The notes under the pieces were generated by a model. That model saw nothing but the letters and a program-made list of their open reading frames with translations, was not told where the DNA came from and ran no database searches. The position numbers and the translations under genes are program-made. Of a stretch of 20,910 nt of DNA, positions 9,001 through 20,719 are shown piece by piece (within the stretch, counting starts at the first letter, position 1; each line of letters begins with the position of its first letter). This DNA comes from a virus. The stretch lies in the IMG/VR virus record IMGVR_UViG_3300035157_000383, positions 1 through 20,910 of that record. One strand, written 5' to 3'.

Positions 9001-12000
9001 CTGTAAATGGACCTATCTTATAGTTTGGTAGACCAGATGCAGCAACATAAACGTAATTGTCATTAAAGAAGGTATTCTGAATGTTTGTAGTAAACTCACT
9101 AACCACACTATTGATAGAAGTGATGTCAGACTTACCTCTGTTTAAATCCACCGATAGTAAAATATTACCTTGAGGTATGATGTCGGTTGGTACGTTAATC
9201 TGATATGAGAAGGTAAATTGGTCAATCCTTGATGTTACAGTAAATGTGCCGTTGTACACAACAGGGTTAGCACCATATATCGTAACCTGATCGGATACTA
9301 GTAGACCGTGTGGGTTATTACAAACTACAGTAGCAGTTTGATTATTAACACCACCAGGAGTAATAGTACCAACTTGAATCAATTTCTTGACGTTATATAA
9401 CCAAGATTGGAGTCTTAACTCCTCAGCAGTAGATCCAAGGTTTGCAACCTTCAGTTTATCACCACCAAGGTAGTAACTACCAGTATCGTTTAGTACTGTG
9501 GTACCTGCTTCAGCAATACCTAAAATCCTTAACTTACATTCCGTTGCAGTGTCTTTATTGACATATACGAAAATATCTGACTGAATTATAGTACCAGGAT
9601 CCCAATCTTCGACGATTCCATTCTTAGACCTAGTACACTCGATAAACTGGTTTAGAGACTTCTCTTTATACTGGACTTGCTCCTCATCATTGATTCTAAT
9701 AGTACCATTCCTTTCGGGCCATCCAATAGTGGAGTCAACGGTTATGATTTGACCAGTTGTAGTAAGAGGCTCAACTAGACGAGTTTTATAAGGTATGATG
9801 AAGCTACCAACTAAGGTTTCTTCGGATATTGCCAATTCATAGATGGTGTCAGTACCTTCAATGATAGTAATGACGTTTTCAATCAATGCAGATGCATTGG
9901 TAACACTAGAGTCTACTTCATCAGCATATTGGTTAACTTGAGAGTCTATTAGGTTTGCAGGATCACCAGATATCAACTCAGCACGTAAAATAGTGTCTAC
10001 AACCCAAGTTGCATGAGATGGACTGATAATTTCATCTTTTGGATAGTAAAGAGAAACATCTTCACCAAATAAGATCTTAAAGAGGTATTGTGTTGCTAAT
10101 TCTGTACCTTTCGAGATATAGAAGTCACTAATATTCTTAATTACCTGTACTGGGTTAACTTTAGAAAAATCAATATCCAAAGTAGGCAAATACTGCCTTC
10201 TAAACTTATCAAAGACTTCTTTAATGAATAAAGAGTCAAGGTTGGTTACAGCAGCACCAGCAAGGTGATTTGATTGCCTTAAAGCTGCTTCTCCAGCATA
10301 TATCTCATTATGGAGGTTATCATACCCAACTGGTCCAGAAACGCCTCTAGCACACCCTAGGAAGGCACTAGGAGAGTATCCTGTACCATCTTCTATAATA
10401 TCAAATCCAGTAACCTGATCAAACCCAACATCTACTGATGCTCTTGCTGCTTTTGGTTCTGCGATGTATATTTTAGGAGGTTCTGTTTCAGAGTAACCAG
10501 ATCCAAAATCAGTGATGTTAATATCGGTAATTTCACCATTAAAGATAGTAGCAGCTGCTTTAGCACCAGTACCACCTATTGGTTCTCCATATCCGTCTTT
10601 TCTATCGTCTACAATATAAACTGAAGGTGCATCGGTATATCCTTGTCCACCAGTCAACATTTCGATATTTGTTACTGATCCAGACGCTACAGTAACGTCT
10701 AATATCTGAGCACCAACTGGATCAATAATTTTCACCCTAGGAGGTGTAATATACCCTCTACCACGGTTAGTAATCTGAATTTCGTATACTTGACCGTCTT
10801 GGTTAATTCTTGATATTGCTTGAGCATTAATTCCACCAATAGGTGCTTGGTCGATGTAAACTACAGGTGGATTGCTATATCCACTGCCCATTTCGTCAAC
10901 AGCGATACTTCCTATATTAACTCTACCTTCAGAGTCGATAGTAGGAGCACCAATGGTTGCACCACCAGGATTCTTGAATGATATGGCAGGAATGAAGTCA
11001 TATCCACTACCACTATCAGTAATAGTAATAGTATCCACCATTCCAGTCTCATCATTGACTGTAAGACTTAATCTGGCAGCTGTACCATTAACATTACTAG
11101 CATCAGCAACAATAGGGATAGGTGGGTTGTATGAAGAGTATCCTTGACCACCATCGATCAAATTGATGTCTTTAATACCACCAATTAGAGATCTAGCAGT
11201 AGCATTCTTACCAGTGGTACTAGTAATAGTAACTTTAGGTGCAAAGTCTAATCTATACTTAGATCCGCCACTTTTGGGGATTAAACTGGTAATTATGCCA
11301 GCATCAGACACCTTAGCAATTGCTGAGGCTCCTGAACCGTAACTAGGAGGAATATATTCAACAGAACGAATATGAATATCATCAGCAGCTCCGATTTCAT
11401 TTTTAAAGACAATTGTGTCTTCAAAAACGGTAAAATCGTCATATGGGATTTGTAAACGACCATTTTTGTTGATTACGAGTCCAACTTCCGAAGTTGGAGT
11501 GTAACTTGCTCCAGAAATCCTTAATGGGTAAATTTTAGTGTTTTGCCACTCTTGATAAGGGATAGAATCGCAAACTTTGATTGTCTGATCCGAATATCCA
11601 ACCAAATAAGTGATTTGAGTGAATTCTGAGTCATCAGATCCAATTTGATCTCTAGGTGCTTCTGCAAAACGAATATTTTGCCCTTCTACAAAATAATCGA
11701 CTCCAGGTACCTTCATATCATTGTAAGCGACTACAATGAGGTGATCTGCCGAGGTTGGAGCTACTGGAGTACCTAAAAAGCTTAATGGGAAGATGGTTTC
11801 AGTGCCATCAAACAATGTAAAGGGATTTTCTAGTTGTTGCTTCTTCTTATTGAATTGGGGGTAAGAGATCCCAGGAGTAATAATAACATCAGGACCACGA
11901 GTAACAGATTCATAGTAAATTACCTCATTATCAATCATTATGGAGCCATCTTGCTCCTGGAATCCATCTATGCTCTCAATTTCAATCTTTTTATCGTACA

Positions 12001-12232
12001 CACCGATATCTTTGAGCAATTCAGTTGCACTTGCAAGTTGCTCAGAGGTATAACTATCCAGATCAAGATATCTCAGTAAGTTATTGAGGATATCATAAGG
12101 TCTACCTGTTTTCTCCTGAGATTTGTAATATTCAAACAAGAAGTTGACTAATTGTCTATCTTCTTGACGAATGAACTCGGGTAACTGATTTTCGACCCTA
12201 TCAGAGACGTTGATATTCTTTGTAATCGGCAT
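1..12232 (-). CDS. Giant mosaic virion/baseplate protein in the gp7 position (at least 4077 aa, C-terminus beyond window)
   Basis: A single frame runs from ATG at 12232 to the window edge; I read every codon and found no stop. It starts 5 bp after the gp6 stop, where T4 has gene 7 (a wedge protein of about 1030 aa). Order seen: N-terminus with LPEFIRQEDRQLVNFLFEYY (about residues 18-37); eight GGxGY beta-repeat units (317-620); a helical domain with FYISKGTE and LFKILFGEDV (660-760); six more GGxGY units (1130-1350); a YHYH domain (1370-1560); an EF-hand-type loop (1619-1630); a beta-propeller-like segment (1840-2225); a LamG-like fold (2245-2435); two PTHT repeats (2660-2790); a stretch with YVFDLSDTSNLGYYLSF (about 2955); further GGxGY units; the segment IQDSFFYQNFSYVV (near 3540); and DAYRMIQKNKAMIA near the edge. 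Many of these segments resemble large cyanomyovirus structural proteins. Inference: virion-associated wedge and adhesion protein. A late promoter box lies 61 nt upstream. Confidence 0.95.
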   Translation of the reverse strand, partial: MPITKNINVSDRVENQLPEFIRQEDRQLVNFLFEYYKSQEKTGRPYDILNNLLRYLDLDSYTSEQLASATELLKDIGVYDKKIEIESIDGFQEQDGSIMIDNEVIYYESVTRGPDVIITPGISYPQFNKKKQQLENPFTLFDGTETIFPLSFLGTPVAPTSADHLIVVAYNDMKVPGVDYFVEGQNIRFAEAPRDQIGSDDSEFTQITYLVGYSDQTIKVCDSIPYQEWQNTKIYPLRISGASYTPTSEVGLVINKNGRLQIPYDDFTVFEDTIVFKNEIGAADDIHIRSVEYIPPSYGSGASAIAKVSDAGIITSLIPKSGGSKYRLDFAPKVTITSTTGKNATARSLIGGIKDINLIDGGQGYSSYNPPIPIVADASNVNGTAARLSLTVNDETGMVDTITITDSGSGYDFIPAISFKNPGGATIGAPTIDSEGRVNIGSIAVDEMGSGYSNPPVVYIDQAPIGGINAQAISRINQDGQVYEIQITNRGRGYITPPRVKIIDPVGAQILDVTVASGSVTNIEMLTGGQGYTDAPSVYIVDDRKDGYGEPIGGTGAKAAATIFNGEITDINITDFGSGYSETEPPKIYIAEPKAARASVDVGFDQVTGFDIIEDGTGYSPSAFLGCARGVSGPVGYDNLHNEIYAGEAALRQSNHLAGAAVTNLDSLFIKEVFDKFRRQYLPTLDIDFSKVNPVQVIKNISDFYISKGTELATQYLFKILFGEDVSLYYPKDEIISPSHATWVVDTILRAELISGDPANLIDSQVNQYADEVDSSVTNASALIENVITIIEGTDTIYELAISEETLVGSFIIPYKTRLVEPLTTTGQIITVDSTIGWPERNGTIRINDEEQVQYKEKSLNQFIECTRSKNGIVEDWDPGTIIQSDIFVYVNKDTATECKLRILGIAEAGTTVLNDTGSYYLGGDKLKVANLGSTAEELRLQSWLYNVKKLIQVGTITPGGVNNQTATVVCNNPHGLLVSDQVTIYGANPVVYNGTFTVTSRIDQFTFSYQINVPTDIIPQGNILLSVDLNRGKSDITSINSVVSEFTTNIQNTFFNDNYVYVAASGLPNYKIGPFTGSALIPGNQRKLLRFPRIVQTISERKTIDPGTPIGAWVNGVSIWSYKSREFIQYGPLTSISVTNVGESYDAGAKPNVEITGGGGSGAVAEVIVNGSLTSFDMTTEGSGYTESPLVSIVGGGGSGATAQAVITGGRVTRILVEQPGTGYTTQPLVSITGGGGTGATATANVRGPISSVAVTNFGSGYTSLPAIKVNSGEGALAQPIVINGRIVSIAIINSGESYTTAPNIIINGEGFGAIAKATIGTIGEDKGRVLGVTITNKGIGYIQGTTTVRLEAVGQLASFTPTVYQWNKNLEYDLASKFDNARGYVFTGYNNQFGGEYAHLSDPKELRYVVGDNVFLNPVTQNFQEVAANYQHSPILGWAFDGNPIYGPYGYIDPTDQNSGIRRMRTSFKLKSNVVYDEATNPNPSRVDGPPIATYAPGTFVDDYYYDFQSGDLDNYNGRFCKTPDFPDGVYAYFITIDASDAGIPEYPYIMGPQFNSLPDDWNFNQLATQENIPDGVVRYRDPYTDVDIDVDRQPNQEADVFTTEIEGYPIIFEIQDSNNDGLIDANEQQELLQMSEESTLQIYDYFPRVSEESRVDIEVDTTTQFENAKIDGFVIENPGVSYQVNDTVFFDNEGTGGFGASAIIESVKGQSIVAYTKSIIGDRCYGNITTSVGHELRQQDEIIVNSRPVIDNTSKTYKVKVVAGVERINVTQAGTGYNTDIPPTFELITASGQDAELQLVLEGTGQINRINIINSGNGYSSTNPPQIRVSHPQQFKKTRYWLTEYTEAAGSVSIWDSWTTADRWTYICGSVLETDGDQSAILAKFDDLGQLVWERNLIPQNAGTKKMEFVKMHIDESLENDVIYLAGQTYDPNNAAYNPDVWLGQYESGFNNANAPDGILKWQRSIAGISGLARRDYVTSIALDQEKRIYIAGYTDSNSPDPDDMWVIQCDRDGDLVEKRKIASADDSEMINQIKWISDDRFFFVGINKQNNDCIFGVFWYDGANIEIEYIRQIPTVGGYVRNPQFIIDEYDDVLLIWDVYNSATTKYEKIQLNKFPIATANTAWEWTKTVTVSGSIDSIRHAGVNVDVFGNYSLVSDVIESENQRYSVIHYLKYDGTVIKETKVDDTVNIGFQAKSHTLDNSGDCIIAVDRRQSDQMASYRFNDALDLDYDFTKQNLATLALHTPGNASIDTSIYKFGTSALKLSGVCPVKLPAYNLQSTEWSMRAWMAMATAHHASTTKPLLFDITPITGDSIQVELDGDNTSGNYGKVVLYVNSVEVATSTANTYWTNFGSAAWVHVTFQKREESLGLYQYEVFFNGNLVVNYQSTSDISIADITVAGKYSGPNTGNCFIGWIDDLVIDDLAPYTSSYTVPTDEIAITTSISDVALIKFDRQHDKRAAYTLTGLTKYTNIEFSDIETATTWVDQTVSAFSPWTVGAGGLQILDMSQTVATYIPGTYTFTSAKNEYATKTSTIPSPLGKKLTISADVISKFYIRDAGYSKIDNVLEFTFNQDVKLTKGSTIQQFTTVAGNDVVAGYGTIVDIPNANSLTDPGMGNKYKVGKIYGTFNNTDRFKTDVGDINQIAGTYFSVEEPEIPWAAGVSVTTGEKRYYDKKIYQSQGTGTTGTIPPVHTGGVVTDGLINWAFVDDAGKFTVDLTEHPYPMPQYLGNDMPEWDNGKLYVVGQKVWHKLNVYVVGAGGAGVSGTTPPTHTTGAVSDGGVTWTWESTSQPISAFARTLPYDLGNNYTVQIVEIQPGSTYIPEDVVSVSSVNITEAEDRKSVVISGFASVKKIRVTARLEKDILRTADTRTNLVYCTSLTPHRFIEDEIIYTEGFQGTQFNGSFFVDQVIGTREFTFGIRDVASQDPTFNANSIGNVNIYAKHPTLEFTRNHQYVFDLSDTSNLGYYLSFSQDNQYKLEYSFNNITRSGTPGIPEAGADYPFVKFSVLGDVTNISYYFDPSRTGSTSPVGDNSFIDVITTPYQGTFTISQVLSDTEFQFPLLKEPERTSAEVGTDEFGNVYSYYSTTSTRAVGPINSIQLVSPGGFYQKLPIINDIASYRQIEKIVVVDGGTEYAPGVYYEVPVNGDGEGGKATITVEFDAEVGSGTITQAQVADPGKGYTIASIDIDSIPGILGQTLAGSGGSVNVIIPEEGSGASVFLTGTNIGKIKRLKNNEFGFGYSHDYTLKPEITFPVNLQLFNTSILSQIKITDPGSGYTSTPAVVIEGGGGDGAEAEAVVKNNRLSEIIIKNSGAGYSSEPTVTLKSEFNYVVNLDLNYLQFNFPHGITTGAEVQFRAEDIGSTEGELPKPSTAGLTSLVAGQTYYAIAGDAAGLESDQLRFGLTLASAQAGSYITFLTTGSGRQVLLTEVFGGKAVAVVETSRFLEGEAVFQGSSVETATATGKVSTNTGWQIGPKILKIVDYTGDWAEGEKVTGEISKASGLIDNLSIARGVLNIGSLTKTPGRFIDDVGKPSEIVQKIQDSFFYQNFSYVVQSEIPITEWKTQVLENNHPAGFNMFGQLQLTGGKDVSGRKIGTEFTKQVNINNYSNVNQITSFGAAQPIYTDYNNTEVLFRKKRLTSSEEILTSIVKKLDNIQDQFDGIKKQFPITVEGETVIIKDNQLMITLNGVIQSPGTSYQVVGGNLVFAEPPKPPSKVNYRTISVTPTTIYRIALYDGFGTSNYGIFPTLGQQVQGQNTDTIATVIDSGTNHIDVINLTGTFDLNEQIKRGELFAALVESITPLASPTIFEFGESITNLEGDTAYVEETNIDNAGNVTDRLVVSKTSGTPKFETGIFDLRLNEFIYSASSKIAGQITFIAPYEDPINNEIVDELIINKGTTFFGLLFERLVSLTNPNVILDDISQSSITPTELYDSEQRINADFLDFEQVRTTEVTYSQVTGGTLSEGMIVRNKKTFYGNPVSTFHTIASNRFLDGRRNILNNKQEIIDFAEASIAIDYPDYYFPSDVITNSWSRFKDAYRMIQKNKAMIAGMAFDDMKTQYPSSSIPSDAKCKRDL
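1470..1680 (-). other. Conserved C-terminal segment IQDSFFYQNFSYVV of the giant protein
   Basis: About residues 3518-3588 read GRFIDDVGKPSE, then IQDSFFYQNFSYVVQS, then PITEWKTQVLENNHPAGFNM and FGQL. The pattern of an IQDSxFYQxFSYVV strand followed by W and HPAGF is one I associate with large cyanomyovirus virion proteins. It supports the view that the frame is a genuine phage structural protein far from its start. Confidence 0.55.
2240..2830 (-). repeat. C-terminal GGxGY beta-repeat units in the giant protein
   Basis: About residues 3135-3330 contain DGGTEYAPGVYYEVP, DPGKGYTIASID, DPGSGYTSTPAVVIEGGGG and NSGAGYSSEPTVTL. These are four diverged units of the same beta-repeat family. A long beta-rich segment and the conserved IQDSFFYQNFSYVV stretch follow. 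Confidence 0.7.
3865..4255 (-). repeat. Two tandem PTHT repeats in the giant protein
   Basis: About residues 2660-2790 hold two homologous units. One reads KIYQSQGTGTTGTIPPVHTG then GVVTDGLINWAF. The other reads NVYVCGAGGAGVSG then TTPPTHTTGAVSDGGVTWTW. The shared pattern, N/I-x-Y, glycine run, PPxHTxG, DG, x-x-W, is a small beta unit frequent in phage tail fibres and cyanophage structural proteins. A linker of about 35 residues separates the units. Confidence 0.75.
4930..5500 (-). other. LamG/ConA-like lectin fold in the giant protein
   Basis: About residues 2245-2435 contain, in order, YKFGTSALKLSG, WSMRAWMAMATA, VVLYVNSVEVATS, AAWVHVTFQKR, YEVFFNGNLVVNY and FIGWIDDLVIDD. This is the usual course of a laminin-G or concanavalin-like jelly roll, including the WxHV strand, the FNG turn and the closing G-x-IDD-L strand. 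Such folds often bind glycans, so a host-surface contact is a reasonable inference. Confidence 0.8.
5560..6720 (-). other. Beta-propeller-like segment (SBBP-like repeats) in the giant protein
   Basis: About residues 1838-2225 show recurring blade-like units. Examples are WTYICGSVLETDGDQSAILA then KFDDLGQLVWERN; DVIYLAGQTYDPN then DGILKWQRSIAG; YVTSIALDQEKRIYIAGYTD then MWVIQCDRDGDL; DDRFFFVGINKQNND; and FGNYSLVSDV. The alternation of an aspartate-rich strand, Y-x-A/C-G and G-x-x-x-W-x-R resembles SBBP-type beta-propeller repeats used in extracellular binding. Blade number is uncertain because later units are more diverged. Confidence 0.6.
6720..7200 (-). repeat. Three further GGxGY-type units between the EF-hand loop and the propeller
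   Basis: About residues 1678-1838 contain IENPGVSYQVNDTVFF, TQAGTGYNTDIPP and NSGNGYSSTNPP. These are diverged units of the same beta-repeat family as the tracts at 10370-11290 and 8175-8835. They act as a linker into the propeller-like segment. Confidence 0.65.
7343..7378 (-). other. EF-hand-type calcium loop in the giant protein
   Basis: Residues 1619-1630 read DSNNDGLIDANE. Positions 1, 3, 5, 6, 8 and 12 carry D, N, D, G, I and E, the canonical EF-hand or dockerin loop pattern. It sits just after the YHYH domain in an acidic stretch (DVDIDVDRQP is nearby). Calcium binding could stiffen or trigger the protein outside the cell. The loop is directly visible; binding is inferred. Confidence 0.75.
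7560..9060 (-). other. YHYH domain and its N-terminal extension in the giant protein
   Basis: The core (about residues 1420-1557) reads NYQHSPILGWAFDGNPIYGP, then YGYIDPT, an Arg-rich strand, DDYYYDFQSG, and NGRFCKTPDFPDGVYAYF followed by YPYIMGPQF. This matches the YHYH domain pattern, whose hallmark strand has become NYQHS here. Upstream, YVYVAASGLPNYKIGPF and IGAWVNGVSIWSYKS match the extension that cyanophage copies usually carry. The role of the domain in virions is not known to me; it is common in cyanomyovirus structural proteins. Confidence 0.85.
8175..8835 (-). repeat. Six-unit GGxGY beta-repeat tract, second copy
   Basis: About residues 1133-1353 form six units of about 36 residues. 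Turns in order are GESYDAG, GSGYTESP, GTGYTTQP, GSGYTSLP, GESYTTAP and GIGYIQG. Several units also carry a GGGGSGATAQA-type glycine/alanine tail. The glycine-rich codons make the opposite strand look like a proline-rich reading frame, which is an artefact. The tract directly precedes the YHYH domain. Confidence 0.85.
9950..10250 (-). other. Conserved helical domain of the giant protein (FYISKGTE / LFKILFGEDV)
   Basis: Residues about 660-760 contain NLDSLFIKEVFDKFRRQYLP, then VIKNISDFYISKGTE, then LFKILFGEDVSLYYPK and a downstream Trp/Arg/Gly-Asp stretch. This mixed helical segment interrupts the beta-repeat regions and recurs, as I recall it, in large cyanomyovirus structural proteins. Function is unknown; a folding or docking unit is likely. 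Confidence 0.55.
10370..11290 (-). repeat. Eight-unit GGxGY beta-repeat tract, N-terminal copy
   Basis: About residues 317-620 of the giant protein hold eight diverged units of roughly 35-40 residues, each with a hydrophobic beta strand, a G-S/Q/R/T-G-Y turn and a following PP or AP. The turns seen in order are GGSKY, GGQGYSSYNPP, GSGYDFIP, GSGYSNPP, GRGYITPP, GGQGYTDAP, GSGYSETEPP and GTGYSPS. Such repeats are common in cyanophage structural proteins and suggest an extended beta-rich fibre-like stalk. Confidence 0.8.
12100..12232 (-). other. N-terminal baseplate-type segment of the giant protein
   Basis: Residues 1-45 read MPITKNINVSDRVENQLPEF and continue FIRQEDRQLVNFLFEYYKSQ. The pattern LPxFIRxxxxxxVxFLxxYY resembles the start of large baseplate-associated proteins of marine T4-like phages. 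It is probably the anchor to gp6 or another wedge component. The family link is from memory of sequence pattern, not from a search. Confidence 0.6.
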
Positions 12233-12237
12233 CTATC

Positions 12238-14367
12238 TTAGAAACAGGATTCGCTGACTGGATATGTGAAACTATCCGTTGGATAATCAATGATATTTAT
12301 ACCACCTGTGTCACCGAAATTATAACCATTAAAGTTATTCGGATCAAAGGTAGGGATTGCAGTATCGTTGATTGTGTAGTCAATTGGATTGACTGCTGGG
12401 TTAAAGATTGTTGGATCTACTCCTGGTGGGATATTAATTGATCCACCGCCAGGTAATACTTGTATTGGGAGTCTTGTAGTGTCATCTGGAGTGCCCTGAA
12501 TCGCTACAGGACCAACACAGACCTGACCACTACCATAATCTACACTTCCTACTGATGCATTAAGTGTTAATTCGGTTTCATCCCTTATTGTTACGAGAAT
12601 TAGGTTACCACGACCATCATCTCTTATATTTACTGGTACCAAGACCTGATTTGTGACATTTGTCGATATTCCAGGAGTTGTTATAACAGCAGATGTAGCA
12701 CCATCAGTTAAAGTTAGATTTACAAGGTCTTCTGTGTAACCAGTGGCATAAAATGTGCCAGATTTAACTACAGAGAAGTTTGGTTTACACTTATTGCCAG
12801 TTCCACCACTTCCATCATCTCCATTGTCATCATCATCAGTACCATCACCATCTGGAGTGCCAGAATAGTTAGATGGATCATAAAGTGGGTTACCAAAGTC
12901 TAAACATTGAGTAAATACTTGACCAAATTCAAATTTATCTAAATTCTGACCCAAAGTCATCTGAGTGACATTACCAGAAATGGAATTATCACTATTATCA
13001 ATCATTGCACCGAATTTAGACCCATCAATACGTCCATTAAACCTATTTGTTTGACCTGCCTTGTTGTAATCGTCAATTCCTTGTAAAATCTTAGTTCCAA
13101 GTTGAGATCCAGTCAAATTAGTGTCATTTCCATTGAAATAAACGTAAGATTTAGGAATAACATAGAAACTTGTTGGATCAATGATGACTGGCTCGATAGA
13201 TGCAACAGAATACTTCGCCAAATCCTTCTTGATCTTATTTTTTGTCGTTTCATTCAACTTATTTCCTGTTTTTGGTCGAATTGCGACATAAACTTTCCCA
13301 TAAACAGGTGGAGTTAACTTCTCACCTCCAAAAGCAGTCACAGATGCTGCTTGAGGGTAGATTTCAGAGACAATATGCTCAAAATCATTCTCTGTAACCG
13401 CCCTATTCTGAGTTGCGTACGCTCTAGGTGCTCTAAACTTAACTGAGAGTGCTGTTTCACGGTCTTCACCGTCTTGAGCAGCATCTTTTGTAGTTAATGA
13501 TATAGAATTTGGAGAAATAGTGCGTTGATCACTATCAACTATGTTACCAATGAAGTCAAAACCCTTCGCACCGTTGGCTTCTACCCCATCTGTAGAGACA
13601 TATGTGGTTCTAATGTATTCTCCATCAATTAATTTACGTCCAATTGACCCATCTCCGAAAATAAGACGATATCGCATGTCATCAGTCTCTTCTAGGTAGT
13701 AAATTCTACTAGTAGAGTCCGCATTTGTAACATTTTGTGCTGGACTATAGGTATCAGTCTCTGAAGATTGTGCAGTTGGTGAAATATCTACAGTTAGAAG
13801 TCCAGTATCTACATTTTCATCAGGAATAATGTACTCTTGCCTCTTAGTATAGTCAACTGTGAAGTTATAAGTGAGTAGATTACCTTGATATACAAGCACA
13901 TTATCAAAAGTTGCCCTACCAGTAGCGGAATCTACTGGTACTTGGATGTCTTGAGTGAGTGCAAAGGTGTAACTATCGAAATCATTATCCGCAACAAAGA
14001 CATCACCCTTCTTAAGAGTCGCATATTCTGGGAAAGTAGTGCCATTTAGTCCTACTGCTGTCTGTGCAATCAATTTTACACACGCTCTAGGTGCTTTTAT
14101 TGACCGTGGAGTGTAATTTAACTGCTTTGCAATGCGGACAATGTTATCTCTGACCGTAGATGTCTCTAAAAATGCCTCATTCAACGCCATATTAGCGTTA
14201 AAAGCAGTGTAATAAGTGTTATATGCTAAAATATCAATCAAATAAGACGCAGAGCTTCCCTCAAAATCGTAATCTGTAAACTCTTTTCGGGTGCGTAAGT
14301 ACGATTTGATGGATTCTTTGATCTCAAAGAAGTCTAACGACGTTAATTGTGATGGAATTGCTGACAT
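12238..14367 (-). CDS. gp6: Baseplate wedge protein gp6
   Basis: A protein of 709 aa (T4 gp6 is 660 aa). gp6 forms the ring-like core of the contractile baseplate wedge and binds gp25 and gp7. The N-terminus has the typical gp6 stretch NANMALNEAFLE and continues RIAKQLNYTPRSIKAPRA (residues 57-95). A central beta-rich part follows, with a conserved-looking RYRLIFGDGSIGRKL and a segment with NRAVTENDFEHIV. Residues about 500-525 are an unusual Gly/Asp linker (GTPDGDGTDDDDNGDDGSGG), after which come about 185 residues of beta-rich sequence ending PVSESCF. I take this tail as an extension not needed for the wedge fold. The start follows the gp25 stop by 1 bp, so the genes are probably translationally coupled. 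The family call is firm; the tail's role is unknown. Confidence 0.93.
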   Translation of the reverse strand: MSAIPSQLTSLDFFEIKESIKSYLRTRKEFTDYDFEGSSASYLIDILAYNTYYTAFNANMALNEAFLETSTVRDNIVRIAKQLNYTPRSIKAPRACVKLIAQTAVGLNGTTFPEYATLKKGDVFVADNDFDSYTFALTQDIQVPVDSATGRATFDNVLVYQGNLLTYNFTVDYTKRQEYIIPDENVDTGLLTVDISPTAQSSETDTYSPAQNVTNADSTSRIYYLEETDDMRYRLIFGDGSIGRKLIDGEYIRTTYVSTDGVEANGAKGFDFIGNIVDSDQRTISPNSISLTTKDAAQDGEDRETALSVKFRAPRAYATQNRAVTENDFEHIVSEIYPQAASVTAFGGEKLTPPVYGKVYVAIRPKTGNKLNETTKNKIKKDLAKYSVASIEPVIIDPTSFYVIPKSYVYFNGNDTNLTGSQLGTKILQGIDDYNKAGQTNRFNGRIDGSKFGAMIDNSDNSISGNVTQMTLGQNLDKFEFGQVFTQCLDFGNPLYDPSNYSGTPDGDGTDDDDNGDDGSGGTGNKCKPNFSVVKSGTFYATGYTEDLVNLTLTDGATSAVITTPGISTNVTNQVLVPVNIRDDGRGNLILVTIRDETELTLNASVGSVDYGSGQVCVGPVAIQGTPDDTTRLPIQVLPGGGSINIPPGVDPTIFNPAVNPIDYTINDTAIPTFDPNNFNGYNFGDTGGINIIDYPTDSFTYPVSESCF
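12294..12301 (-). promoter_or_regulatory. T4-type late promoter box TATAAATA inside gp6, ahead of the giant gene
   Basis: The minus strand reads TATAAATA exactly, within the last codons of gp6 (Gly-Ile-Asn-Ile). It ends 61 nt before the ATG of the giant gene, which would leave a leader of roughly 50 nt. The octamer is the T4 late promoter core, recognised by the gp55-type sigma factor. Chance occurrence in AT-rich coding DNA is possible, but I found only one other exact copy, upstream of gp25. Confidence 0.55.
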
Positions 14368-14368
14368 T

Positions 14369-14782
14369 TTATGCTTTCTCTAGAAGAAAATCGACATTTT
14401 GGACTTCACTTTCACCTATTATCTTATAATCTATGGCAACTTGGACAGAATTTATCTCAGAATCATCACGAAGTCTGACACCAGTTACCTTTATCCTAGG
14501 TTCGAGTCTCGATAAACAGTTCATAATCTCGCTTCTCATAGCATCCACGCTGAATGGATCCCATTGTTCAAATAAAAGCATCTTAACCCTAGATCCAATC
14601 TCATCTTGAAATGGTCTTTCTCCGAACATAGTTAAGATGAGGTTACGAACAGACTGCTTTATAGCATTCTCATTCTTAACCACACCAAAATCACCAGTAT
14701 TAGGATTGTCTTTAAAGGAAATTGCTAAATCCTTGAATCCTCTACTAATATATTTCTCAGATCTGAACCTATAAGAGGGCAT
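14369..14782 (-). CDS. gp25: Baseplate wedge subunit gp25 (GPW/gp25 family)
   Basis: A protein of 137 aa, close to T4 gp25 (132 aa). gp25 is a small wedge subunit with a lysozyme-like fold that joins gp6 and helps start sheath polymerisation. Family features seen are a leading segment with KDLAISFKDNPNTGDFGVVK, then NAIKQSVRNLILTMFGERPF, then EIGSRVKMLLFEQWDPFS, MRSEIMNCLSRLEPRI and a closing beta hairpin VQVAIDYKIIGES. The start is the ATG after AGG-N5. An exact late promoter box and a hairpin lie in the 57-bp gap upstream. The stop is 1 bp before the gp6 start. Confidence 0.95.
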   Translation of the reverse strand: MPSYRFRSEKYISRGFKDLAISFKDNPNTGDFGVVKNENAIKQSVRNLILTMFGERPFQDEIGSRVKMLLFEQWDPFSVDAMRSEIMNCLSRLEPRIKVTGVRLRDDSEINSVQVAIDYKIIGESEVQNVDFLLEKA

Positions 14783-14839: not shown

Positions 14840-14977
14840 CTATTTGCCTTGACCCCTATACCTTTTCTTAGCTGCGTTACGTGAAGTGGCAGCAATTTTT
14901 GTGTTTTTAGAGTTACCTTGCCTTGTTTTCTTCGCTGGAGGAGCAATATAATCTCCATTTGAACCGTATAATGCCAT
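14840..14977 (-). CDS. Small basic 45-aa phage protein
   Basis: An open frame of 46 codons including the stop lies between the PAAR-like gene and gp25. It reads MALYGSNGDYIAPPAKKTRQ, then GNSKNTKIAATSRN and AAKKRYRGQGK. About a quarter of its residues are Lys or Arg, and the C-terminal KKRYRGQGK is strongly basic. The sequence resembles small conserved proteins of similar pattern that I recall from cyanomyoviruses, with an APP-x-KK start and a RGQGK end, of no known function. The ATG lies 17 nt after the upstream stop without a strong ribosome site. A nucleic-acid or acidic-surface binding role is only a guess from charge. Confidence 0.75.
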   Translation of the reverse strand: MALYGSNGDYIAPPAKKTRQGNSKNTKIAATSRNAAKKRYRGQGK

Positions 14978-14994: not shown

Positions 14995-15528
14995 CTATGA
15001 TGATAGCACAGTTGCATGCCCCCAGGCAACCACAGATGAACAAGGGTAACTAAATCCTGAAAAACCAACTCCTAGAGGGTCTAGAATACGAGCAATGGGC
15101 AATTTCAAAGCAAATACTGTTACAGTTGTCGCCATAAGGATTCTAGTATGCCCTACTCCACCTCCATCTTCAATTGTTAACTGACTACACGGTATAGGAG
15201 TAGGTACTGGACACGTGGATTTACCACAAGGACACATGTACACAATAATATTAGTACATACTGCTATATGCGGTTGGAATGTATCCCCATGTAACATAAT
15301 AGGAATACGATTTACTTGCACAGTTGCCCTATATGGAGTTACTGGAAAGATTGGAATTAATGCTTGAGGAGGCCACCAACATGTATATTCCTTAATGACT
15401 ATGCTGTAGGGGATTGGAGTGCTGCCACAGGACTGTACAGAGTGCACAGTGGACGGTATACACAATCCATGACCACTACAGGGTAATCCGTTTAAAGATG
15501 ATACTGGTAATAGATATCCAAATGCCAT
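14995..15528 (-). CDS. Cysteine-rich PAAR-like baseplate spike-tip protein
   Basis: A protein of 177 aa with ten cysteines (17, 23, 34, 50, 91, 99, 101, 106, 114, 163). Residues 70-91 read VQVNRIPIMLHGDTFQPH followed by IAVC, and residues 135-153 read TVTVFALKLPIARILDPLG, ending SSVVAWGHATVLSS. A V-x-x-N-x-xP-I-x-x-x-GD strand, a following His/Cys, then a second V-F-x-x-LP-I-x-R-x-D unit is the course of PAAR repeats. PAAR proteins cap the spike needle of contractile tails and bind one metal ion through His and Cys. In T4 the PAAR gene 5.4 lies just before gene 6; here the gene sits just before gp25-gp6. Residues 17-50 are a separate cysteine-rich arm. The ATG overlaps the upstream stop (TAATG) with AGAGG well placed before it. 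The PAAR call is by pattern and is moderate. Confidence 0.55.
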   Translation of the reverse strand: MAFGYLLPVSSLNGLPCSGHGLCIPSTVHSVQSCGSTPIPYSIVIKEYTCWWPPQALIPIFPVTPYRATVQVNRIPIMLHGDTFQPHIAVCTNIIVYMCPCGKSTCPVPTPIPCSQLTIEDGGGVGHTRILMATTVTVFALKLPIARILDPLGVGFSGFSYPCSSVVAWGHATVLSS

Positions 15529-18500
15529 TATAACCTCTTAGGTTCTACTATATCATTAAGTGTGGTTCCATCTGTCCAAGAATTATCCTCACTACACTCA
15601 TCAAAGTAAGGATTACCATAATTACGCAACGCCCTACCCAGTGCTATAACTCCACCTGTAAGATAATTCCTTACAGTCATGGTACCATTATAAGCACCCA
15701 TTTGCAACCTAGCAGTAGATCCAGATCCTTCCACACGTTTAGGTTGAACGGCAATAGATGAATCCATACATTTATCTAGTGCTAGACAAGGGTTGTTGTG
15801 CAATTCAGGAACGTTACAGTAAGTCTGACCTGCTATACCATTACCATCTGCATCATAACCACAGTATACAGTAAGAGGACCATCAGATGCATTAACTCCC
15901 CGTACGTATGTATCCCAACATTCATTAGGTGGTACACCGTTGGTACAACTTGCCACGGTTAACGCAGTATAATCTACAGAGTGAGGTGTACCTGCTGGAT
16001 CTCCTGCCGTAGGGTGACCCAACCATGTCTGCACTGCTTGACTACTTGTGATATTCTGACCAGCCCACATCTGTAACTGTTCCAGCTCTGTATAGTTAGA
16101 TCTGTTGTAGTCGTAGGTGTTTTCATCTAACCCGACAGGAACAAAGATCATATTAGCAGGATCTCCAGGATCACGGTAACATCTACCATCTATACTACTC
16201 CTCTTACACTTCCAAGTCCTAGTACCAGCATTCACTGCTATATCTCGTTTTTCTTGCAAATGAGGTACTGGCATATTCTGAAGGTAGTCCATAAATGCTG
16301 CACCTTGACTGCCACCAACATATCCTTCTATTTCCATTGATACACGGAATGCTGCCTCCTTTTGCTCAGAAGCACAATACTTAAACGGCAACCATCCAAA
16401 TGCCTTTCTTTCACCCTCACTACCAACATCAAGATAAGCACAAGGCATATCAAACCAACGAGTAATATTATAAAGTTTAGGTTGTGCCACAGTGATACAC
16501 TCATCCCCAAAAGGACCATATAAGGATGACATATTACCACCAAAGGTATCCGCAGCTTCAACACCTTGATGTACCCAAGGCATAGTCATGGATTCAAATG
16601 CACCAACTCCATTAGGATCTAATGAAGTAACAACTGCCATATTCTCTATATCTGGTAGAGCATCAGGTAGATTTGCCTTTCCATTAATCTCAATACAGTT
16701 TGGCGGTAGATTGAAACAAAGTTTAGTTACCTTATCCAATTCTATACCATCTGCTGCTGCCCTTATATAACTGTCTGGTACCTCAACGTAGACCTGAGTA
16801 GCAGTATTTCCTAGCATCCCAGGTTGTGCAGTATTCTTCATATTCTTTCCAACTACTTCCATAGTCGCAGGATCCATTAGGTTACCTATAGGCTCCACAC
16901 TATAGTCTGCTTGCTCTACTCTAGCTGCACTATAGCTTCCAATCTCCTTCTCCTTATACTCATGGTTAAATGCATCATCCATCAACTTATGAGTATCTTC
17001 CATTTCTTTTCCACCGTAAACATCCCCACCACCATCAAACTTAATCCTTTCAGGATCAACTATATGAATATGAGGTAAGTTAACTTGATTATACCCTGCA
17101 CCACCATCTATTATTCTGACTGCTTTAATACAACCCAACTCATCTTTCTGTGCTATCTCAAGCTCTGCTCTCTTCAACTTAAACAGATTATTATCTTTAT
17201 CCTTCGTATCGATAGCTTGCATAGCAGTACCCCACTTACGTCCAGCAGTCTTCATTTCCGAAAGGGTGTGTGACCTATCCTCTTTTGAGACATCTCCAAG
17301 TGCTTTAACGTAATCAGGATCCATAGTAAGTTTATCTTCCATGAAGTCTGCACTGTCAGTAGGGGAGAAGCTATCCATCTCCCGTGGATTCATTATATGA
17401 ATCTGTGCATTATCCGTATATCCTCTACCACCATTAATAATAACTACGTCTACTACACTACCATCATCACCTACTACCGCTTCAATTTCTGCTTGGTCTA
17501 AACTACGATGAGGTATAAGTGCTTTAGGATCTATCTCTACTTTCCAGTAGGAGATCTTCTTAGGAAACTCATATGTGCCACACATAGCAGTTTTATTAGG
17601 TATACCATACCCTGCTAATACCTCTGCTGTGCCTATCTTATCGCCTCCAGGACCGTCGTTAGGGGCAGAGTTGTATGTATCTTGGTATGCGAAGGTATTA
17701 GGGTTAGGATCCCTACTAATATTCTGCACTCTAGTCTCTAGTGTATAAGTGCCTGGTCCAAGTGTCATAGGGAAGGTCTCTTGCCCCATACCATTAGCGT
17801 AAGTGATCTCTCTATCTACGAGGACAGTACCACCAGAGTCTGTAATCTTCATGTAACCGTAGTTGTCAGACTCTATCCTTAAGGAGTAATCTCCCGCAGT
17901 AGGTATAGTAAACGTTGAGGTATGCACCTGCCATATACCAATATACGGATCTACTACGTCATCTGCTGGTAATACAGGGTATATACCATACGACTTCATG
18001 TGCTGTGTCCAACCAGTTGCGGGATGATTGGGCGTACCTATAGCAACCCACGACCCCTTCTCTGTAATAGAATTGGTTATCTCCGCATTACTACTATTGG
18101 TAATACGCCATGCCAAGCAAGCAGGGTTAACATACCACTTATTATCATTACTGGTATCCCATGTAAGCTCCATGATACCGCACTTCAACTCATCACCGAA
18201 GTAATAAACAGATACTACATCCCATCCATTAATCTTGTCACCTGCATTAAAGTCTCCAGTACGGGTGGTATAACGGAAGAATACAATAGGACTCTCAGTA
18301 TCAATAGTCCAGAATGACTCATTTACTCCCTCAGTAGAGGTATCATGTAGGGAGAGCTTAGTCTTAGTGGTATTCCATACATCTCCATTAATCTCGTAGT
18401 AATGACTGTGGTATGTCCATACTGGAGCACACTGAGGACATCCTTCAGGGTCAGTAGTATTAGGACAGCACTGAGCATTACTAAGGATATACTGAGTGGA

Positions 18501-19697
18501 GAAGATAGGACCATTCCAAGGGTTTGTAGTGTCGAATAGGTAAAATACAAACTGGGAGTCATACATATCCTCGAATCCAAGGAAACGTGGTATAGCACCC
18601 TTTACAGCACCACTCAGACCATAACTCCACTCGAATAGTGCTTCATTATCTAATATCTCTACATTATCTGGATTACCCCAACCATTAACGTTAGGTGGAC
18701 CTTCTACACTAACACCATTACTATCACGCATCTGCTCATACATGAATTGGGTCCATGGACCCATTCCACTAATAATTCCATTCCAAGTTGCTTGTCTGCC
18801 AAAGGTATAGTCATACCATCCACTCTTATCAACACATGCTCCAGTAGGACCAATCCTACCAACGTCTATTATAGTGTCCGTAGGAGCGTCTAGAGCACGT
18901 GTTGCAAACGCCCACCCTATGATTCCAACATAGGAGTATTGTTTACCTAATGGATCTTTAGGAGGTATAGGACTATTATCTGCTAAGTTTACTTCATTTG
19001 CAGGATCTATAGTATAGAAGTGATCAGGGTCTGGATGTAGGTATTCATAGATTGGTCTAGGTGTTTCACCAGGACTACAGACTGCTAATGCATTTGCTTC
19101 TGTATCAAAAACATATCCTAATGTATCTACCTCCAAATATTTGTTTCTTCCACAACCTACCCCATTTAATCCAGTAGGGACATTTGTACCAGCACATAGC
19201 TGGGTATCATCAGGCCAATATGAATAGAATGCTTTGAGTGGTACCGTATTAGGTACCTGCTGTGTCATAACATAGAACACAGGTTTACCACTCCTAGGCT
19301 CAGGATTATACCCAGAAGCAGCACGTTTCCAACTCTCGTTTTCGCAACCGAAGTCTCTCTTTATTAACTGTGGGTCTCTACTATACTTGTGATCATCCTT
19401 TGGTGCTCTATAAAACCTGTATATACCTGCTCTCTCATTACCATCTCTACTTACATTAGTAGGCTCCTCATCACCAATGTAGTGGATAACATCTTTACCC
19501 ATTGGCATAGAACCAGGACCACCATCATCGAAGGTGATCTGATAATTCATACTACCAGCATTATCTGTATTCTGCCCAGGATAGTCACTAGAAGTCCTAT
19601 ACTTACTACTCGCAGGTCGTTTAAACGTTTGAGTAAAAGCACCACTTTTAATTGGATTAGGATAACTCCGACCTGTTTCCTGTATATAAGCAGGCAT
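15528..19697 (-). CDS. Large mosaic cysteine-rich virion structural protein (1389 aa)
   Basis: I do not recognise a named T4 equivalent. Segments seen: residues about 91-268 hold two or three diverged DUF5648-like units (GIYRFYRAPKDDHKYSRDP; PIYEYLHPDPDHFYTIDP, closing IIGWAFATR). Residues about 579-670 form a PA14/CBM-like jelly roll (FTIPTAGDYSLRIESDNYGY, then LGPGTYTLETRV). Residues 746-885 carry two GGxGY units (VVDVVIINGGRGY and IKAVRIIDGGAGY) separated by a charged helical insert of roughly 90 residues. The C-terminal third is cysteine-rich (27 Cys overall) and has a DADGNGIA calcium-loop-like motif (1282-1289). The end reads YNGTMTVRNYLTGG and NYGNPYFDECSE. The ATG overlaps the previous stop (TAATG) and the stop overlaps the next ATG. 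Inference: peripheral baseplate or fibre-like protein working with the PAAR-like protein. Structural role likely, exact job unknown. Confidence 0.93.
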   Translation of the reverse strand: MPAYIQETGRSYPNPIKSGAFTQTFKRPASSKYRTSSDYPGQNTDNAGSMNYQITFDDGGPGSMPMGKDVIHYIGDEEPTNVSRDGNERAGIYRFYRAPKDDHKYSRDPQLIKRDFGCENESWKRAASGYNPEPRSGKPVFYVMTQQVPNTVPLKAFYSYWPDDTQLCAGTNVPTGLNGVGCGRNKYLEVDTLGYVFDTEANALAVCSPGETPRPIYEYLHPDPDHFYTIDPANEVNLADNSPIPPKDPLGKQYSYVGIIGWAFATRALDAPTDTIIDVGRIGPTGACVDKSGWYDYTFGRQATWNGIISGMGPWTQFMYEQMRDSNGVSVEGPPNVNGWGNPDNVEILDNEALFEWSYGLSGAVKGAIPRFLGFEDMYDSQFVFYLFDTTNPWNGPIFSTQYILSNAQCCPNTTDPEGCPQCAPVWTYHSHYYEINGDVWNTTKTKLSLHDTSTEGVNESFWTIDTESPIVFFRYTTRTGDFNAGDKINGWDVVSVYYFGDELKCGIMELTWDTSNDNKWYVNPACLAWRITNSSNAEITNSITEKGSWVAIGTPNHPATGWTQHMKSYGIYPVLPADDVVDPYIGIWQVHTSTFTIPTAGDYSLRIESDNYGYMKITDSGGTVLVDREITYANGMGQETFPMTLGPGTYTLETRVQNISRDPNPNTFAYQDTYNSAPNDGPGGDKIGTAEVLAGYGIPNKTAMCGTYEFPKKISYWKVEIDPKALIPHRSLDQAEIEAVVGDDGSVVDVVIINGGRGYTDNAQIHIMNPREMDSFSPTDSADFMEDKLTMDPDYVKALGDVSKEDRSHTLSEMKTAGRKWGTAMQAIDTKDKDNNLFKLKRAELEIAQKDELGCIKAVRIIDGGAGYNQVNLPHIHIVDPERIKFDGGGDVYGGKEMEDTHKLMDDAFNHEYKEKEIGSYSAARVEQADYSVEPIGNLMDPATMEVVGKNMKNTAQPGMLGNTATQVYVEVPDSYIRAAADGIELDKVTKLCFNLPPNCIEINGKANLPDALPDIENMAVVTSLDPNGVGAFESMTMPWVHQGVEAADTFGGNMSSLYGPFGDECITVAQPKLYNITRWFDMPCAYLDVGSEGERKAFGWLPFKYCASEQKEAAFRVSMEIEGYVGGSQGAAFMDYLQNMPVPHLQEKRDIAVNAGTRTWKCKRSSIDGRCYRDPGDPANMIFVPVGLDENTYDYNRSNYTELEQLQMWAGQNITSSQAVQTWLGHPTAGDPAGTPHSVDYTALTVASCTNGVPPNECWDTYVRGVNASDGPLTVYCGYDADGNGIAGQTYCNVPELHNNPCLALDKCMDSSIAVQPKRVEGSGSTARLQMGAYNGTMTVRNYLTGGVIALGRALRNYGNPYFDECSEDNSWTDGTTLNDIVEPKRL
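15532..15544 (-). promoter_or_regulatory. Short hairpin covering the ribosome binding site of the PAAR-like gene
   Basis: The minus strand reads AACCTAAGAGGTT followed by ATAATG. AACCT and AGGTT pair perfectly around a 3-nt loop, and the Shine-Dalgarno AGAGG lies in the loop and 3' arm. The upstream gene's stop TAA overlaps the ATG, so ribosomes finishing the large gene would open the hairpin. This suggests translational coupling that keeps the two proteins in ratio. The stem is only 5 bp. Confidence 0.4.
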
Positions 19698-20044: not shown

Positions 20045-20073
20045 ATTATACCTCATTCTTCCACTTTATGCAA
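20045..20073 (-). promoter_or_regulatory. Sigma70-like promoter ahead of the 89-aa / 1389-aa genes
   Basis: The minus strand has TTGCAT, a 17-bp spacer, then a perfect TATAAT. The -10 lies about 78 nt before the ATG of the 89-aa gene. Spacing is ideal; the -35 matches only the first three bases of TTGACA. The -35 overlaps the last codons of the AbrB-like gene. It could be used by host RNA polymerase earlier than the late genes. Confidence 0.5.
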
Positions 20074-20250
20074 TATGATACTTCCATCAGTCTCCTCCTC
20101 GTATTCTAATTCTGTCCCTATATCCCATCCACAATCTCTCATAACATCTTCAGGGATGTGTATGAAGTTATCCCCATATTCATCTTCCTCTATTCGTAGT
20201 GTGAAGCGTTTCATTTCATACTTTACTTGTATATCTGCTTTATGTAGCAT
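20053..20250 (-). CDS. Small AbrB/MazE-like protein, 65 aa
   Basis: From residue 13 the sequence reads MKRFTLRIEEDEYGDNFIHI, then PEDVMRDCGWDIGTELEYEE, then DGSIILHKVEE. The order strand, IPxDVMxxxGWxxGxxL, strand, closing I-x-L-x-K is that of the swapped-hairpin AbrB/SpoVT/MazE fold. In phages such small proteins may be transcription regulators or antitoxin-like; no partner toxin is seen here. It overlaps the peptidase gene by 11 bp. The first ATG (20250) has a GAGG site just upstream; the second Met (20214) matches where I would expect the family to begin and may be the true start. Confidence 0.7.
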   Translation of the reverse strand: MLHKADIQVKYEMKRFTLRIEEDEYGDNFIHIPEDVMRDCGWDIGTELEYEEETDGSIILHKVEE

Positions 20251-20719
20251 TTTCCCTCACTACACCTACACAACATATACGATAATGCCTATTTAACTCC
20301 ACTATCTCTGAGTCACATTTCCATAACTGGTGAAGCATCCACCCATCACCTAGGTAAATCGCTCCATGATTAGGAGACCTTCCGTTAGGATCCCGATACC
20401 CACCACCGAGTGCTTCATTGTATATCTTAAACAAGAGTAAATCATTCTTCTGTAAGATAGACGTATCCCAGTCCTCTCCCCACTCTGGTCGTAATATCCA
20501 CTTCCCATCCTCTTCTGCTACTGCATCATCTGTAAAGGACGTGTACAGTCCTGAGAAGGACTTGAGAGACCTGTTAACATGTGTCTGGTAGTATTTCTGT
20601 ATAACGTCATAACAACCTGGATATCTTCTACCAGGCCATGGGCGACCAATGAGATCTTTAAACTCCTCGTTTAATTGCTCTTGGAGAATCTCTTTGGGAC
20701 TTTGATTAAACTCTGACAC
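20240..20719 (-). CDS. NlpC/P60-like cysteine peptidase (159 aa)
   Basis: Residues 24-44 read IGRPWPGRRYPGCYDVIQ then KYY, giving the helix with catalytic Cys36. Residues 91-130 have NDLLLFKIY, then NHGAIYLGDGWMLHQL, giving His118 and a possible third polar residue His130. This is the NlpC/P60 order: Cys at the start of a helix, His at the start of a strand. These enzymes cut peptide bonds in peptidoglycan; in tailed phages they occur on tail tips or in tail assembly, easing penetration of the cell wall. The start is GTG at 20719: upstream in frame there is a TAG with no ATG in between, and AGG lies 8 nt before the GTG. It is probably the first gene of this transcription unit. Confidence 0.7.
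   Translation of the reverse strand: MSEFNQSPKEILQEQLNEEFKDLIGRPWPGRRYPGCYDVIQKYYQTHVNRSLKSFSGLYTSFTDDAVAEEDGKWILRPEWGEDWDTSILQKNDLLLFKIYNEALGGGYRDPNGRSPNHGAIYLGDGWMLHQLWKCDSEIVELNRHYRICCVGVVRENAT

Follow-up and report, generated by a model that had tools for sequence, protein, structure and literature searches.

PAAR spike tips are usually shown as minimal cones that hold one metal ion, and the additions known so far are mostly effector domains at the N or C terminus. In the model for phage T4, gp5.4 caps the gp5 trimer at a ratio of 1:3, and contraction of the sheath drives the capped spike into the envelope (PMC7600766). In the T6SS PAAR proteins c1882 and VCA0105, zinc is bound by three histidines and one cysteine (PMC10715212, PMC8651086), and in the IglG/DUF4280 protein of Francisella, four conserved cysteines help to bind zinc or iron (PMC5349215). 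Here we describe a tip of this kind that is enlarged between its metal ligands.

The tip is encoded at 14995-15528, on the minus strand of a viral fragment of 20.9 kb (20,910 nucleotides; we will refer to this whole stretch as the window). The open reading frame begins with ATG and encodes 177 amino acids with ten cysteines, at positions 17, 23, 34, 50, 91, 99, 101, 106, 114, and 163; the first-pass annotation of this DNA had both the coordinates and the number of cysteines exactly right. Compared to its relative L005, 45 of 531 nucleotides differ and only four residues are changed, so the gene is under purifying selection and is a real gene, not a chance frame. Using tblastn with E values of up to 10, we found matches to the tip in 255 of 50,697 phage records, and all but one of these (a weak match) bear the names of Synechococcus phages, Prochlorococcus phages, or cyanophages. 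From these relatives, we infer that the window comes from a T4-like marine cyanophage, and the taxonomy of the best match (S-SZBM1, 67.8% identical) points to the Kyanoviridae. A search of cellular genomes with a single pattern yielded 12 matches, none of which was confirmed (this is weak evidence of absence), and a search of plasmids yielded one match, with E = 0.5.

The product of this gene is the PAAR spike tip of this cyanophage, as judged by profile matches, the predicted fold, the pattern of ligands, and synteny. This upholds the suggestion, in the first-pass annotation, of a PAAR-like tip. The protein matches the profile of PHROG 281 (PAAR) with E = 5e-18, or E = 1.1e-20 in a second search. 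(This profile gives matches in 3 of 14 control genomes as well, which is expected because the family has bacterial members.) A Pfam search of the tip gave no match even at E = 10, and PF05488 was matched by 7 of the 16 members of the tip's alignment. We also compared a profile of 15 tips, comprising the window's and 14 from phages, to the PDB. T4 was left out of the profile, as an alignment that holds gp5.4 would be circular. The profile matched c1882 (E = 2.4e-8), VCA0105 (E = 3e-5), the KP1 tip (E = 3.2e-5), and T4 gp5.4 (E = 6.3e-4).

The AlphaFold2 model of the tip (from 92 sequences) has a mean pLDDT of 83.3 and a pTM of 0.78, and the predicted fold is PAAR. The top five Foldseek matches are the tips of T4, KP1, and P1 along with c1882 and VCA0105, while the remaining 21 rows have probabilities of 0.02 or less. 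Foldseek's raw E value for T4 gp5.4 is just 1e-3. When Foldseek's own matches were re-examined with VIA, T4 gp5.4 aligned over 96 of 96 residues at 1.5 Å (Z = 11.8), and the other four tips aligned over 92-97 residues with Z scores of 9.7-11.2. No solved structure of a tip with an expanded apex turned up, and the best relatives in the PDB are the T4, KP1, P1, and bacterial tips.

Within genomes, PHROG 281 has exactly one match in 24 of 26 phage records, none in two of them, and two in none, which means that none of these records (the window being itself a fragment) offers a better PAAR candidate by way of a second match. The tip does not resemble a T6SS effector carrier, as its neighbors are baseplate and other phage genes and no family besides PHROG 281 matched it. 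Some of its relatives are already annotated as PAAR, and the homologue in S-P4 and S-8S29 is annotated as a structural protein, which we count in favor of the main proposal below.

By sequence, the residues of the His3Cys metal site are present at equivalent places and are nearly invariant. We assign H20 (codon at 15469..15471, minus strand, as are all of the window's features below), H87 (15268..15270), H127 (15148..15150), and C163 (15040..15042) as the equivalents of H14, H46, H56, and C83 of T4 gp5.4. The T4 ligands were themselves assigned by elimination, as T4 also has C9. We checked these positions in 103 unique proteins of 150-210 amino acids, including the window's, out of the 175 that we found. 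The first ligand is His in 98 of them and Glu in the other 5, and the remaining three ligands are present in all 103. (In the tips of L161, L171, and L172, the first ligand has changed from His to Glu, with GEG instead of GHG.)

Relative to T4 gp5.4, the window's tip has 80 extra residues, and 68 of these are in three loops between the ligands. Insert 1 (residues 21-51; 15376..15468) is 29 residues longer than in T4 and contains C23, H29, C34, and C50. Insert 2 (residues 88-126; 15151..15267) is longer by 30 residues and contains C91, C99, C101, C106, and C114, and insert 3 (residues 152-162; 15043..15075) is longer by 9 residues. Thus, eight of the ten cysteines sit in the three loops. In blocks of ten residues, the pLDDT of the model is 90-95 in insert 1; 91, 73, 94, and 90 in insert 2; and 59 in insert 3, where it falls under 50 at residues 155-159. 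The lengths of the segments between the start, H, W, H, H, the P of DP, C, and the end are 13, 2, 28, 9, 23, 2, and 13 in T4 and 19, 31, 34, 39, 23, 11, and 13 in the window. Across the larger family described below, the distance from the third histidine to the D of DP is 23 residues in all 161 proteins that could be parsed (13 of 174 could not), and the loops vary: 27-57 residues from H1 to W, 36-71 from H2 to H3, and 4-14 for the third loop, with 4 to 14 cysteines per tip across the 174 proteins. In many cyanophages, the cone is enlarged between the metal ligands, with the spacing of the core kept fixed. Because the 68 extra residues adjoin the ligands, the loops probably lie at the apex.

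The first-pass annotation described a different architecture, with a cysteine-bearing arm at the N terminus and the PAAR domain at the C terminus. This fails because the supposed arm contains the first canonical ligand, H20; this residue is part of the cone, which spans residues 8 to 177. The supposed arm is actually loop 1 and the supposed cysteine cluster is loop 2, with the extra residues being inserts beside the ligands, split between residues 21-51 and 88-126. Nor is the protein a minimal tip, which would have short loops and about 90-100 residues: it has 177 amino acids, and its loops are longer by 29, 30, and 9 residues.

Our main proposal, with a probability of about 0.85, is that the protein is a PAAR cone, that it sits as a monomer on the end of the trimeric gp5 spike of its T4-like marine cyanophage, and that it has one metal ion at its apex and a point that is enlarged by the inserted loops. 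H20, H87, H127, and C163 would hold the metal ion, which is most likely zinc. Two loops of about 30 residues and a short third loop, inserted exactly between the ligands, would add a storey to the tip, either around the metal or beyond it. Given the homology to T4 gp5.4, contraction of the sheath would drive the capped spike through the outer membrane of the host. As for the spike itself, we found matches to the OB domain of gp5 in all 7 cyanophages that we searched, with 5 of them over the cut-off; the match in S-WAM1 is weak (E = 0.006), and 3 of the 14 unrelated genomes used as a control also gave matches, below the cut-off. The beta-helix repeats of Gp5_C, on which the tip of T4 sits, were over the cut-off in only one of the 7 cyanophages, which leaves us less sure of where the tip is mounted. 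Sullivan and colleagues (2010) list 41 proteins in virions of S-SM1 in a supplementary table (PMC3037559). In the literature, we found no experiments on the tip protein that addressed bound metal, disulfides, or virions.

To see which cysteines might work together, we collected 174 unique proteins (49 clusters at 75% identity) from the 418 of 435 sources that had a match; many of these overlap between scans. We had dropped 14 frames that lack a [ST]G[HE]G motif, another 10 because of their length, and 7 weak matches, and the motif filter biases the count at position 20 in this set towards His or Glu. The tree was built without the columns that bear cysteines, and we used a quick method for the tree tests.

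C23 (codon at 15460..15462) and C91 (15256..15258) are in the same state in all 174 proteins: both are present in 92 and both are absent in 82. In terms of clusters, the counts with both, with just one or just the other, and with neither are 21/0/0/28. Each of the two positions changed seven times on the best tree, and there are three independent pairs on supported branches, all in the same direction, which is too few for a sign test. C23 is three residues after H20 and C91 is four residues after H87. Both are just past residues that would bind the same metal, which makes it plausible that they are bonded to each other, and we consider a C23-C91 disulfide to be probable. The co-variation hints at a staple between loops 1 and 2. 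A second tie between these loops, from C50 to C114, is just possible because that pair (18/1/0/30 over the 49 clusters) has only one change on the tree.

We also considered other pairs of cysteines. C99 and C106 are associated across clusters (4/2/3/40; Fisher's exact test, P = 2e-3), but they never changed in the same direction on supported branches, so we dropped this candidate. In other clades, a pair at positions 118 and 146 (9/0/4/36) is weak on the tree and is absent from the window. Also in other clades, the equivalent of position 38 is paired with C112 (40/2/0/7); among supported pairs, 2 of 2 agree when starting from the first position, and 2 of 4 agree when starting from the second, with no difference in the other two.

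These results bear on the idea, from the first-pass annotation, that the cluster from C91 to C114 could hold more than one metal ion. We found no support for this cluster as a unit. C91 co-varies with C23, and C114 with C50, instead of with one another, and on a smaller tree, positions 91 and 114 lack a consistent direction. That C91 tracks C23 is a better fit to a disulfide than to a metal cluster.

A different set of residues might bind one or more further metal ions, which would be compatible with our main proposal. The likeliest are C17, H29, C34, and C101, which we propose because they are left over after the canonical site and the possible disulfides are accounted for; as such, they were picked after seeing the data. 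Position 29 is His in 171 of 174 proteins and in 48 of 49 clusters, and position 101 is Cys in 46 of these clusters. The figure for position 101 changes with the alignment, however: in our first one, only 21 of 31 clusters had Cys there. At position 34, only 29 of the 49 clusters have Cys, and the HHPG-type tips have Gly. Overall, we regard additional metal binding by these residues as rather doubtful.

Position 17 (codon at 15478..15480), three residues before H20, is Cys in 137 of the 174 proteins and Asp in the other 37, and both of these are usual metal ligands. The codons are TGT or TGC versus GAT or GAC, which are at least two nucleotides apart. Position 17 changed 15 times on the best tree, with 12 independent pairs on supported branches, and C23, C34, and C101 almost never changed along with it. 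Four of the nearest pairs of tips, which are about 98% identical, differ at position 17, and the window and L005 are one of these pairs. In one pair (L237 and L244), the nucleotide differences cluster around codon 17, so the switch may be carried by local recombination. No partner cysteine disappears when position 17 switches, which makes a disulfide at C17 unlikely; metal coordination is a possibility. Combining these ideas, the loops could form a second, stabilized storey of the tip, with loops 1 and 2 stapled by C23-C91 and C50-C114, and with a second metal ion at C17 or D17, H29, C34, and C101; the Cys/Asp switch would then re-tune the metal or the redox state, for instance to the supply of metal or to the oxidizing, light-lit surface of the host. 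We view this full combination as unlikely. The switch itself offers a ready natural experiment on the role of the tip's metal.

On the minus strand, the order of genes in the window is NlpC/P60-like, MazE/AbrB-like, an 89-amino-acid protein, a 1389-amino-acid protein, the tip, a 45-amino-acid protein, gp25, gp6, and a giant gene that is cut by the end of the window. The tip precedes the genes of the baseplate wedge proteins gp25 (14369..14782; PF04965, E = 2.6e-12) and gp6 (12238..14367; PHROG 219, E = 4.7e-202), and it stands just ahead of gp25-gp6 in all 15 cyanophage records that we examined (in S-SSM6b, gp25 is annotated as hypothetical only). The first-pass annotation took this position to be the T4 order. 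The tip is indeed near gp6, but in T4, gene 5.4 runs straight into gene 6, and gp25 is outside the 77-87 kb stretch, so the agreement does not extend to gp25. The small basic protein just downstream of the tip (14840..14977) belongs to PHROG 516. In the cyanophage records examined, the tip is likewise followed by a gene of about this size (T4-GC 394 in P-RSM4, S-MbCM6, and S-PM2), and in the pelagiphage HTVC008M, a frame with a similar ending is placed before the tip. The giant frame (2-12232) encodes at least 4077 amino acids, with many GGxGYT-like repeats and matches to PHROG 701 and 2885. At the other end of the window, the MazE/AbrB-like frame (20053-20250; 65 amino acids) matches PF04014 with E = 6.6e-5, which is just under the cut-off, and it overlaps the 159-amino-acid frame (20240-20719) that is weakly similar to NlpC/P60 (E = 0.022).

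The 1389-amino-acid protein that is upstream of the tip (15528..19697) matches PHROG 22792 and, in part, PHROG 719 (E = 1.2e-12). It lacks a clear Pfam match and has a GGxGYT-type stretch as in giant baseplate proteins. Its stop codon and the start codon of the tip share base 15528 (TAATG), and the two genes may well be translationally coupled. One base is shared in the same way at 65 of the 159 loci that have an upstream frame of over 100 amino acids, and the upstream frame is 683-1437 amino acids long at 108 of the 113 loci where it is complete. (In this survey, the loci are non-unique and frames run from stop to stop; five frames of 17-28 amino acids are failures of our simple search.) A PHROG 719-like protein is present at the tip locus in all 15 records with an apex-expanded tip, at full length in 11 and partially in 4, and in none of the 8 records whose tip is minimal or missing; given the shared history of these phages, these are not 15 independent events. 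Four of those 8 records have no match to PHROG 719; in the other four, there are only short matches away from the tip locus, and nearly all of these fall at profile positions 477-564. The co-inherited protein would probably be near or on the enlarged tip.

What, then, might the loops do? Instead of forming a sharpened point, they could serve mainly as a docking surface for the upstream protein, which would cap or sheathe the spike before contraction. The co-inheritance of the two proteins and the overlap of their genes favor such a role, as do the minimal-tip phages S-CAM3 and ACG-2014e, which have a different upstream protein (295 and 312 amino acids; PHROG 9712). Yet this linkage could reflect shared ancestry of a single operon, and the upstream proteins of the window's clade match just part of PHROG 719 (about positions 376-613 for S-SZBM1, S-WAM1, and P-TIM40), including a stretch that is also found in giant proteins. 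On balance, we see docking as a possible role that we lean against. Another explanation, in which the loops do nothing in particular and are passive decoration left to drift within one phage family, could account for their varying lengths and numbers of cysteines. It does not sit well with the retention of H29 and of the C23/C91 pairing across distant relatives, or with the predicted tips of S-RIM14 and S-RIM12 (from BFVD), which match our model over its full length (TM scores of 0.83 and 0.74), and we consider it quite improbable. We prefer the enlarged, metal-bearing point as the main reading.

That the protein is a PAAR tip is ordinary. What is new is the expanded apex, the co-varying pair of C23 and C91, and the Cys/Asp switch. 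Among the matches listed by our searches of the open-licence literature, which covered titles and the openings of abstracts, we found no paper on an apex-expanded PAAR tip from a cyanophage (this is no proof of absence). If our reading is true, then it shows that the point of the spike is open to stapling and remodelling.

Within the cyanophages, the closest comparison is to the minimal tips that occupy the same locus before gp25-gp6 and also match PHROG 281: S-CAM3 (101 amino acids), ACG-2014e (98), S-PM2 (107), and S-H9-2 (112). These are about 100 amino acids long, with two cysteines each and without a PHROG 719-like protein at the locus. The tips of S-PM2 (L196:4216-4539) and S-H9-2 (L199:2448-2786) have zero histidines, belong to PHROG 15927, and have a weaker match to PHROG 281; they apparently lack the canonical metal site. 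Elsewhere, minimal tips are found in T4, BUCT-ZZ01, Vibrio phage K452, Cr30, and HTVC008M. We found no match to PHROG 281 in the records of ACG-2014f and phiM12; in ACG-2014f (L198, a record of 226.5 kb), there are other small genes at the place before gp25.

Among the bacterial tips, c1882 (4JIW) and VCA0105 (4JIV), from PF05488, have the same fold as the window's tip (Z = 9.9 and 9.7), and residues 144-147 of the tip form a PIAR motif as in these proteins. However, they are chains of 93 amino acids, 92 of which align, and they lack the long loops. The IglG/DUF4280 proteins of Francisella (PF14107) are also PAAR-like tips with several cysteines. The window's tip, in contrast, retains the full canonical His3Cys set, and its other cysteines come on top of it; PF14107 gave no row for the tip at E values of up to 10, with HMMER's filters dropping weak matches.

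Finally, T4 gp5.4 (PDB 4KU0 and 5IV5; PHROG 281) shares with the window's tip the whole PAAR cone, the equivalent three histidines and one cysteine, a location near the baseplate wedge genes, and a single match to PHROG 281 per record. The T4 protein has 97 amino acids and two cysteines, as compared to 177 and ten in the window, and it lacks the two long cysteine-rich loops that recur in many cyanophages. And unlike in T4, the tip gene in the window is separated from gp6 by gp25 and overlaps a large gene upstream.
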